NCBI GenBank assembly: GCA_030595925.1
Contig: JAUVLC010000072.1
Location: 1 to 12,388 of the forward strand
Origin: Clostridia bacterium
Lineage (GTDB): Bacteria; CBDUZB01; JAGLHV01
Direction: 5' to 3'
DNA length: 12,388 nucleotides
The notes beneath the pieces were generated by a model. The model made no database searches. It saw only the letters and a list, made by a program, of their open reading frames with translations, and was not told the origin of the DNA. The position numbers and the translations under genes were made by a program. This document shows positions 7,907 to 12,388 of the stretch, one piece after another; the first letter of the stretch is position 1, and every line of letters begins with the position of its first letter.

Positions 7907-7982
7907 GGGGGCGTAGTTCAGCTGGGAGAACGCATCCTCGGCAGGGATGAGGTCACCGGTTCGAGCCCGGTCGCCTCCACCA
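7907..7982 (+). tRNA. tRNA-Ala (anticodon GGC)
   Basis: 76 nt with encoded CCA. The acceptor GGGGGCG (7907-7913) pairs with CGCCTCC (7972-7978), including the G3-U70 wobble that is the alanine identity determinant. The D stem is GTTC/GAAC, the anticodon stem CATCC (7933-7937)/GGATG (7945-7949), and the T stem ACCGG/CCGGT with loop TTCGAGC. The discriminator is A and the tail CCA. The anticodon loop TCGGCAG gives anticodon GGC (7940-7942). It puts C, not the near-universal U, at position 33 (7939). The yjbQ-like gene follows 24 bp later. Confidence 0.95.
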
Positions 7983-8429: not shown

Positions 8430-8736
8430 ATAACAGAATAAAGACAGTCCATAGTCCACAGTCGATAGTCCATAGATTAAAAAAAGAAAAGAAAGTCCAT
8501 AGTCGATAGTCCATAGATAACAGATAAAGATAAAGACGAAAGACAGACACAAAGACAGAAACTACAGTTATAAGTTATTAGTGACGAGTTATAAGTTAAC
8601 TACAAAAAAACAAAGACACAGAGGCACAAAGTTAAAAGATAAAGATAAAGAATAAATACTAAATTTTAAATTTGAAAGATTAAATCCGCCTTAAAAACTG
8701 GCGGACAGGCAAATTAAAATGTTTTTGAGTTTATAG
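8430..8736. repeat. Intergenic repeat mosaic between yjbQ-like gene and rsmD
   Basis: There is no gene here. In order it holds four AGTCSAY heptamers (8446-8473) and three more (8494-8514). Then come GATAAA/GACGAA/GACAAA hexamers (about 8523-8557) and five GTTATNA-type heptamers (8567-8601). After ACTACAAAAAAACAAAGA come two octamers (8615-8630), GTTAAAAG (8631-8638), more GATAAAs, and a GC-rich hairpin (TCCGCC 8685-8690, GGCGGA 8700-8705). ATG-proximal sequence has only a weak GAG (8727-8729) as ribosome-binding site for rsmD. Confidence 0.9.
8685..8705. other. GC-rich hairpin ahead of rsmD
   Basis: TCCGCC and GGCGGA form a 6-bp stem around the 9-nt loop TTAAAAACT. The stem stands out in AT-rich surroundings and is followed by ACAGGCAAATTAAAA. 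No clean T-run follows on the plus strand, so it is a poor terminator. A dispersed hairpin repeat is equally possible. Confidence 0.45.
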
Positions 8737-10347: not shown

Positions 10348-12018
10348 ATGTTATTGGATTTGACGATAAAAAATTTTGCTATTATTTCTGATTTGCACCT
10401 TTCTTTTGATAGGGGATTGAATATTCTTACCGGAGAAACAGGTGTGGGTAAATCAATTATTATTGATGCTCTAAATTTAATTTTAGGTGGACGGGCTTCT
10501 TCGGATTTAATTAGAAAAGGAAGCCAAACCTGTGAAGTGAGTGCAATTTTTAATATTAAAGACAATAAAGAGTTAAGAGATTTATTAGTGGGTGTAATTG
10601 GCTCTGATTTTGATGAAAAAGAAGTTCTCCTGCGTAGACAGTTGACCAGGGAAGGAAGAAACCGTTGTTTTGTTAATGCCAATCTTACCAGTTTATCTAT
10701 TTTACAGTTAATAGGAGAGAGACTTATAGATGTTCACGGACAGCATGAGCATCAGACTTTATTAAAGAGACAGGAACAGTTAAATGTTTTAGATAGCTTT
10801 GCTAATCTTTTTTCTTTACGGGAAAAAGTTTCAATGTTATATAAGCAATATAAACATCAAAAAGAAGAAAGGGATAAACTTTCATCATCTGAGGAAGAAA
10901 GAAAACGCAAAATTGATTTTTATCAATTTGAGATTGAAGAAATTAATCAGGCTAAACTTGTTTTAGGTGAAGAGGAAGAATTAGAAAAAGAATATCGTTT
11001 GTTATCTAACGCACAAGAATTGTCTATGCTTTATTCGGGTGTTTATGAAAAATTGCATGAAAAAGAAGAATCTGTTCTTGATTTACTTAAATCTGTTCAA
11101 AAGAATTTAAAAGAAATTACTCAAATCAATTCTGAAGTAGAAGATGTTTTGGAAAACATAAATAATGTTTTTTTTGAATTGGAAGAAATAGGAGAGAATG
11201 TTTGTGACTTTAAAGAAAAAGTTAAATTTGATTCTCCCCGATTGGAAGAAATTGTAGAGAGAAAAGATTTAGTTATTAAATTGAAAAGAAAATATGGGAA
11301 TAGTATTAAAAACATATTGGAATATAAAGAAAAAATAGAAAAAGAACTAAATCAGTTACTTTCCTATGAAGAAAACAAAGAAGAAGTTGAAAAAAAAATA
11401 GAAAAAACTAAACAGGAAGTACTTGAGTTAACTAATAATTTATCCCGGCAGAGGCAGGAATCAGCGAAAATTTTTGAAAAAAGAGTGAAGAGTCAACTAC
11501 GTACATTATCTATGGATAAAGTAAGATTTATTATAGATTGTAAAAAAGATGAGTTAAGTTTTAGTGGTGTAGACCGGATAGAGTTTTTAATTTCGCCTAA
11601 TGTCGGAGAGGATTTAAAACCGATTAGGTTAATTGCTTCCGGAGGGGAATTATCCCGGATTATGCTTGCTTTAAAAACTGTTTTGGCTAAAGCGGATGCT
11701 ATTCCCTGTCTTATATTTGATGAAATTGATGCGGGTATTAGCGGGGGGGTGGCAAAAACCATAGGGCAAAAATTAATTGAACTGGCTGATATTCACCAGA
11801 TAATTTGTATTACGCACTTGCCTCAGATAGCAAGCTTTGCTTCCGTTCATTTTTTTGTAACCAAACAAGTGCAAAAAGGTAGAACTGAGACAGTGGTTAA
11901 AAAATTAGCAAAGCAGGAAATAATTAATGAGATTGCCCGGATGCTGGAAGGAGATAATGTCAGTACTCTTACTTTAAAACATGCAGAGGAAATGGTTAAA
12001 CAGGCAAAACATAGATAA
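10348..12018 (+). CDS. recN: DNA repair protein RecN
   Basis: 556 residues, matching the family's usual length of about 550. RecN is an SMC-like ATPase that acts at double-strand breaks in recombinational repair. The N-terminus LDLTIKNFAIISDLHLSF leads to Walker A GETGVGKS (29-36). RRQLTREGRNRCFVN and LIDVHGQHEHQTLL are the conserved RecN blocks before the coiled coil, which spans about 160-385. The ABC signature ASGGELSRI (430-438), Walker B CLIFDEIDAGISGG (454-467) and ICITHLPQIAS (about 489-499) complete the split ATPase head. CGGAG lies 7 nt before ATG. No SOS-type operator could be recognised in the repeat-filled upstream region. Confidence 0.97.
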   Translation: MLLDLTIKNFAIISDLHLSFDRGLNILTGETGVGKSIIIDALNLILGGRASSDLIRKGSQTCEVSAIFNIKDNKELRDLLVGVIGSDFDEKEVLLRRQLTREGRNRCFVNANLTSLSILQLIGERLIDVHGQHEHQTLLKRQEQLNVLDSFANLFSLREKVSMLYKQYKHQKEERDKLSSSEEERKRKIDFYQFEIEEINQAKLVLGEEEELEKEYRLLSNAQELSMLYSGVYEKLHEKEESVLDLLKSVQKNLKEITQINSEVEDVLENINNVFFELEEIGENVCDFKEKVKFDSPRLEEIVERKDLVIKLKRKYGNSIKNILEYKEKIEKELNQLLSYEENKEEVEKKIEKTKQEVLELTNNLSRQRQESAKIFEKRVKSQLRTLSMDKVRFIIDCKKDELSFSGVDRIEFLISPNVGEDLKPIRLIASGGELSRIMLALKTVLAKADAIPCLIFDEIDAGISGGVAKTIGQKLIELADIHQIICITHLPQIASFASVHFFVTKQVQKGRTETVVKKLAKQEIINEIARMLEGDNVSTLTLKHAEEMVKQAKHR

Positions 12019-12167
12019 AAAGCAAACAGAAGTCCATAGTCCACAGTCCATAGATTACAGATAACAGACAGTTATAAGTTATTAGTTATGAGTTATAAGT
12101 TAACTACAAAAAAACAAAGATAAAGACAAGCACAAAGGCATCAAGGCACAGAGGCACAAAGTTAAAA
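12019..12167. repeat. Intergenic repeat mosaic downstream of recN, interrupted by the intron
   Basis: Contents in order: three AGTCSAY heptamers (12031-12051), five GTTATNA-type heptamers (12071-12105), ACTACAAAAAAACAAAGA, hexamers, and four octamers AGCACAAA, GGCATCAA, GGCACAGA, GGCACAAA (12129-12160). GTTAAAA (12161-12167) follows, after which the sequence switches abruptly to the intron. Positions 12070-12120 match 8566-8616 with only two differences. Confidence 0.9.
12153..12167 (+). other. IBS2 and IBS1 exon sites of the group II intron
   Basis: GGCACAA (12153-12159) and TTAAAA (12162-12167) directly precede the GTGCG intron start. They are exact reverse complements of TTGTGCC (12352-12358) and TTTTAA (12383-12388) inside the intron. 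The order and distance from the junction match intron-binding sites 2 and 1. Both lie in host repeat units. Confidence 0.8.
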
Positions 12168-12388
12168 GTGCGCCAAGCAAAGCGTAGATATTCTTACTGG
12201 TGAGGTAAAGGTAAGCCAAGTCCGGATTGGGTAAAGGTTAGCCGCCGGCCCAACACTGAATTTCACGTTTAGTGAGGTAACGAACTAAACGAAGCTGAAA
12301 GGAAGGAGACATCGGGACGTAACGTAAGTGAATGGATAGAGCCCCGAAACATTGTGCCAAATTCCAGAAGAGCCGAGATGGTTTTTAA
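12168..12388 (+). mobile_element. Group II intron, 5' part of domain I (continues past the window)
   Basis: Sequence character changes at 12168 from simple repeats to a complex, purine-rich structured RNA beginning GTGCG, the group II 5' consensus. Internal structure includes CCAA/TTGG and an 8-bp helix CGTTTAGT (12266-12273)/ACTAAACG (12284-12291). The helix is extended by TTTCA/TGAAA across a bulge. TCGGG/CCCGA forms another helix (about 12312-12346). EBS2 (TTGTGCC, 12352-12358) and EBS1 (TTTTAA, 12383-12388) complement the upstream exon perfectly. Use of both EBS2 and EBS1 points to a IIA or IIB-like ribozyme and away from IIC. Domains II-VI and any reverse transcriptase/maturase ORF would lie beyond the window. 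No ORF is present in this part. Confidence 0.85.
12352..12388 (+). other. EBS2 and EBS1 of the group II intron
   Basis: TTGTGCC (12352-12358) pairs over 7 bp with GGCACAA at 12153-12159. TTTTAA (12383-12388) pairs over 6 bp with TTAAAA at 12162-12167. The two are 24 nt apart, suiting the Id subdomain. EBS1 may extend one more pair outside the window if the next base is C (pairing with G12161). Confidence 0.75.

Follow-up and report, generated by a model that had tools for sequence, protein, structure and literature searches.

The window, a stretch of 12,388 nucleotides that constitutes contig C114 of a fragmented metagenome assembly (genome G000; 2.6 Mb in 193 contigs), ends inside a group II intron, of which it contains the 5’ part and which sits in a repeated intergenic sequence, GGCACAAAGTTAAAA. 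We propose, with a probability of roughly 85%, that this intron is a copy of a mobile lineage encoding a reverse transcriptase (RT), that its EBS1 and EBS2 have diverged to recognise GGCACAAAGTTAAAA, and that it spreads by retrohoming into empty copies of this repeat. The sequences support this proposal at five points, namely the identity of the intron, the pairing of the EBSs with the repeat in a fixed register, an address with two filled and 23 empty sites, the covariation of EBSs and exons among related copies, and the exact boundaries of a sister copy. The novelty lies in the target, since dispersed non-coding modules of a host repeat are used by two intron families.

The intron (positions 12168-12388, plus strand) begins with GTGCGCC at 12168, immediately 3’ of GGCACAAAGTTAAAA (12153-12167), and continues into domain I until the contig end cuts off the rest. 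The Rfam model RF02005 (group-II-D1D4-6) aligns to 12217-12388 (57.7 bits; E 2.7e-14; gathering threshold 49), and this match is 3’-truncated at the contig end, inside the intron. Both the 5’ end (GTGYG) and the domain I structure are as for a mobile bacterial group II intron. The first-pass annotation had placed an intron start at 12168 behind the repeat, and the position of GTGCGCC together with the RF02005 score bears this out. Upstream lies a co-oriented ORF of 556 aa (10348-12018, plus strand), which we take from its sequence to be RecN-like, and the intron is in the spacer behind it, where an intergenic repeat mosaic (12019-12167, plus strand) holds the target 15-mer. On the same strand, IBS2 (GGCACAA, 12153-12159; exon positions -15 to -9, within the repeat) pairs at 7/7 positions with EBS2 (TTGTGCC, 12352-12358). 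IBS1 (TTAAAA, 12162-12167; exon positions -6 to -1) pairs at 6/6 positions with EBS1 (TTTTAA, 12383-12388), which lies in a GT-N6 loop and makes up the last bases of the window. The G at -7 (12161) would pair too if the next intron base, beyond the contig end, is C as in the sister copy on contig C5.

The 15-mer GGCACAAAGTTAAAA has 25 exact copies in the 2.6-Mb genome, two of them occupied (in the window and on contig C32) and 23 empty. Twenty-two of the 25 lie outside every ORF of at least 100 aa, and the empty copies continue mostly as GAYAAA or AATAAA. When up to two mismatches were allowed, 71 sites were found, compared with 20 for a reversed control pattern. The multi-copy intergenic address that had been proposed from the window alone is thus found throughout the genome. 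Within the window, the genome repeat search gave an empty exact copy at 8623-8637 and an empty near-copy with one mismatch, GGCACAAAGTTACAA, at 95-109, both on the plus strand. A tRNA-Ala gene with anticodon GGC (ARAGORN) is at 7907-7982 of the plus strand, where Rfam also gives a partial tmRNA with a score below gathering. The congeneric genomes G001 and G002 have seven and two exact GGCACAAAGTTAAAA sites, respectively, and no intact copy of the window intron was found in either of them. Since these genomes hold exact sites without an intact intron, the intron inserted after the repeat had arisen.

Pairing was scored in a fixed register, EBS2 against exon positions -9 to -15 and EBS1 against -1 to -6, with G-U pairs allowed. 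In this register the window copy and the C32 copy each pair with their own exon at 7/7 (EBS2) and 6/6 (EBS1) positions, so that the complementarity of TTGTGCC and TTTTAA to GGCACAA and TTAAAA, in this order, stands as first noted with 13/13 pairs. A register scan along both strands of the window (24,736 positions) had its mode at 5-6 of 13, and 13/13 with G-U allowed was reached three times: at the real site, at the empty copy at 8623, and at one chance match that contains a G-U pair.

Sister copies of the intron 5’ end with 93-95% identity are present on contigs C5, C113, C43 and C59, and contig C144 carries a diverged complete intron with a 504-aa RT (TIGR04416, 376.5 bits). The first-pass annotation had suggested that further copies be sought and that each might be preceded by the same repeat; the C32 copy indeed has the identical 15-nt 5’ exon, but the copies on C5, C113, C43, C59 and C144 sit elsewhere. 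The exons of these five are unrelated to the repeat, which had been thought to speak against repeat targeting if the exons also failed to pair; where the EBSs are assembled, however, they match their own exons. The EBS2 position reads ACGTGAC in C5, ATGTGAC in C113 and TTTATGA in C144, and most of these bases pair with the exon of the same copy (5/7, 6/7 and 6/7, respectively). The EBS1 loop reads ATTTAA in C5 and TCATTT in C144, each pairing 6/6, and is outside the assembled part of C113. When the EBSs of other copies were placed on these exons as a swap control, only 1-5 of 7 (EBS2) and 1-5 of 6 (EBS1) positions paired. Because no EBS source scores higher on a foreign exon than on the one it belongs to, EBS and exon have changed together between sister copies. 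Thus, the altered EBSs of the sister copies reflect EBS divergence and not a failed prediction, and since these copies sit elsewhere, the predicted repeat-homing is a property of two sublineages and not of the whole family. The end of IBS2 at -9, a linker at -8 and an IBS1 that extends to -1 form a common register in five EBS types, as in RmInt1.

Contigs C114, C32, C113, C43 and C59 end inside the intron and C5 ends at the RT start, as expected from short-read assembly collapsing a recent repeat. The 5’ exon on C43 and the 3’ exon on C177 belong to one gene: joined between GGCAAT and AAAGAA, they give an uninterrupted frame, which by eye we take to be endonuclease/exonuclease/phosphatase-like. 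The frame is restored only at the exact predicted boundary, and a shift of 1-2 nt breaks it; therefore the splice sites of the lineage are GTGYGCC...CTACTCGAC, with exact host-restoring boundaries coming from this sister copy only. The N-terminus of the RT is found in C5, and RT C-termini adjoin domains V and VI (D5/D6) in C62 and C20. Domain V/VI is present on the sister contigs C62, C20, C177 and C144, and the window copy ends before it. The 3’ exon on C20 is within the mosaic, and this 3’ end may be a candidate partner of one of the two repeat-inserted copies. In the MAG, a PF00078 search matched C144 and a retron-type RT and nothing else, with no contig holding an RT body of the window sublineage, and the C144 RT as query in the MAG gave only C144 itself, the N-terminus in C5 and the same retron-type RT. 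The window intron had no match in plasmids, a viral scan gave only two RTs with 37% identity, and phage matches reached at most 42%. The retron-type RT (G000:C135:29970-30548; L020:2731-3702) scores 295.6 bits with NCBIfam retron_St85_RT, above the cut-off. It adjoins an ATPase-like ORF and a 309-aa ORF, by eye presumably a nucleoside deoxyribosyltransferase-type effector, in what is a candidate retron defence locus.

Short 5’ relics, about 44-47 nt long, were found in C49 (14144-14190, 47 nt), G002:C378 (2227-2273) and G001:C157 (2426-2499). These remnants keep the exact 5’ junction and have lost the rest; incomplete reverse transcription is expected to lose the intron 5’ end, not to keep it. 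The remnants in C49 and G002:C378 share a AAACTAAA-type stretch behind the match. The non-mosaic sites in C59 (GGGAAGTTGCTTAAAG), C49 (GGGGCGTTGCTTAAAG), C5, C113, C43 and G002:C378 are alike (GGGRMRTT..), which suggests that the non-mosaic sites of the lineage form a further shared target class.

A second family of group II introns in G000, family A, is ORF-deleted and occupies a different module of the mosaic, ATTGGTTGAATTGGT, with matching EBS1 and EBS2. Its 5’ ends are on C91, C92 and C93, its 3’ ends on C78, C79, C92 and C105, and a relic is in the congener G001 (C157). By eye, only a short remnant of the RT frame precedes domain V in C78, C79 and C105. With EBS values taken from the C92 copy only, EBS2 (AACCAAT) pairs at 6/7 and EBS1 (ACCAAT, in the GT-N6 loop) at 6/6 positions with ATTNGTT..ATTGGT at all three sites with enough exon. 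The 3’ exons of family A continue the same ATTGGT-type module, and empty versions of the module occur in all three congeneric genomes. The use of another module of the same repeat by a second family indicates that repetitive ‘junk’ DNA provides sites at which introns can land mostly without harm. The C92 copy is without the D5 segment between two AGGAAAC repeats, from either a deletion or a misassembly.

The C32 copy is near-identical to the window intron, with one base different over 221 nt as judged by eye. Among 276 site pairs, the two occupied sites rank 11th in the similarity of their upstream flanks, and for each of them some empty site is as similar as, or more similar than, the other occupied site. 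Since the occupied sites resemble each other no more than empty sites do, the window and C32 copies are likely to be two independent insertions. It seems quite improbable that the intron inserted once into one repeat and was then duplicated together with it by recombination between mosaic modules, which would make the repeat targeting a single accident. The near-identity of the two introns over 221 nt would fit such a duplication, as would a 51-nt block that both sites have upstream, but this block is also present at empty sites and the 24-nt stretch between it and the target differs between the window and C32. Likewise, the pair is only 11th in flank similarity, the neighbour genes differ (recN in C114 and an ORF in C32 that by eye we take to be FolD-like), and family A too shows several insertions in the mosaic.

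It is also unlikely that the 5’ end in the window is an immobile relic and that the repeats are merely where decay happened. Relic 5’ fragments do exist in C49, G002:C378 and G001:C157, and the window sublineage is without a complete assembled RT. Nevertheless, two near-identical copies break off at one and the same base, which assembly collapse of a recent repeat would produce, the domain I pairing is intact, and the sister contigs hold RT termini as well as good D5/D6. Hardly credible is the idea that the lineage lands in AT-rich intergenic DNA generally, with the pairing to the repeat a coincidence. The varied sites of the other lineage copies and the frequency of TTTTAA by itself in AT-rich DNA could be read in this way; however, the 13/13 match in the fixed register occurs at two separate sites, in C5, C113, C144 and family A the EBSs have changed in step with the exons, and the swap control largely refutes a relaxed specificity.

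Retrohoming into the repeat, an established mechanism, would explain all of the observations. In a lineage whose RNA and protein are akin to those of RmInt1-type introns, divergence of EBS1 and EBS2 would have enabled the intron RNA to recognise the GGCACAAAGTTAAAA module of a dispersed host mosaic. The spliced intron RNP would then find its target by EBS/IBS pairing and reverse-splice into unoccupied copies of the repeat, the intron-encoded RT would copy the inserted intron, and the inserted intron would stay splicing-competent because its exon pairs with the intron. On this account the lineage is presumably still mobile, the window copy would have been served by the RT, and the two insertions would be independent of each other. 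Intergenic repeats may be favoured as plentiful and harmless sites, and the suggestion of the first-pass annotation that many neutral sites serve as a survival strategy is consistent with the intergenic position of the sites and the many empty targets. Against the retrohoming proposal stand the facts that the window copy is cut short, that no contig holds the RT body of its sublineage or an established 3’ junction at GGCACAAAGTTAAAA, that the sublineage has only two occupied sites and that other copies are in non-repeat sites, one of them in a gene. If it is correct, this genome would show, in natural replicates, how a group II intron avoids target exhaustion, by a change of its EBSs and then by use of a host repeat at dozens of neutral places, and with 23 empty and two filled sites in one genome the dynamics of colonisation become countable.

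EBS divergence followed by homing to new classes of sites has been shown for TeI3/TeI4 of Thermosynechococcus elongatus (PMC2882425). As here, T. elongatus has several families per genome with diverged EBS1/2/3 and retrohoming at matching sites, many of them intergenic (Mohr et al. 2010, PMC2882425), and its ORF-less families are actively mobile, with F4 in a conserved site of the IS200 element ISEL1 (PMC2882425). While the shared targets in T. elongatus are other introns or IS, those described here are two modules of a non-coding, non-mobile-looking host repeat mosaic, used by two families. RmInt1 of Sinorhizobium meliloti resembles the present lineage in its RT without an endonuclease domain, in a comparable exon register (IBS2 -13 to -9, linker -8, IBS1 -7 to -1; PMC3123198) and in having its target within a repeated element, ISRm2011-2 (PMC4496777). 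However, that element is a transposase-bearing IS and not a simple-repeat intergenic mosaic, and the RT relationship is distant; about 40% identity is shared between the C144 RT and the RT of a Sinorhizobium plasmid intron that belongs to the same Rfam D1 family. Group IIC introns share intergenic insertion with the window intron but aim at terminator hairpins or attC (PMC4424553), whereas here a 7-nt EBS2 and a 6-nt EBS1 pair with the repeat. A group IIC assignment was rejected because the 5’ exon consists of the AT-rich repeat GGCACAAAGTTAAAA and because inverted repeats, searched for in 11000-12388, include no hairpin that ends at the insertion site. In the open-access literature we found no report of group II introns that target host intergenic repeats.

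Relatives of the C144 RT were gathered across phyla and 14 resolved 5’ exons were read. Unexpectedly, an ATG is at -4 to -2 in 12 of the 14, with a Shine-Dalgarno (SD)-like motif upstream in 11 of these 12. The introns follow directly after the ATG (SD...ATGA or ATGG before the junction) of unrelated genes in L141, L142, L144, L146, L147, L149, L152, L154, G040 (C122, C105 and C2) and G000:C144. For the six relatives with both ends resolved, the joined exons are continuous ORFs from that ATG, which Pfam assigns to thioesterase, DsbC, GH31 N-terminal domain, IS110 transposase and HEAT-repeat, with one ORF having no assignment. The EBS1 of these relatives, TCATTN, matches (A)ATGA. They belong to the same D1 family as the window lineage and have EBS1 in the same GT-N6 loop, but in the window lineage this EBS1 has changed. 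Because the window lineage nests among such introns in the D1 tree (12-row fork 94/96, with weak support near the outgroups), it has probably been re-aimed from start-codon homing. A search in the phylum of G040 gave nothing in the two genomes covered.

The specificities of bacterial group II introns given in a review are homing sites, terminators and attC only (PMC4424553), and no report of start-codon-targeting group II introns was found in the open-access literature. Insertion after start codons is possibly a further target specificity of bacterial group II introns, and if so it could link the splicing of the intron with the translation of the gene that hosts it. The odds seem even for a broader scenario, in which a branch of a widespread start-codon-homing lineage (SD...ATGA) re-aimed its EBSs at modules of the mosaic, an ORF-deleted family did likewise with another module, and the mosaic would supply renewable harmless homing sites, perhaps shared in trans via one RT. 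In one of the start-codon relatives, L154 from a Nitrospirae MAG, matches to the D1 models RF02005 and RF01999 and two domain V matches lie in a single 4-kb contig, which suggests a nested twintron.
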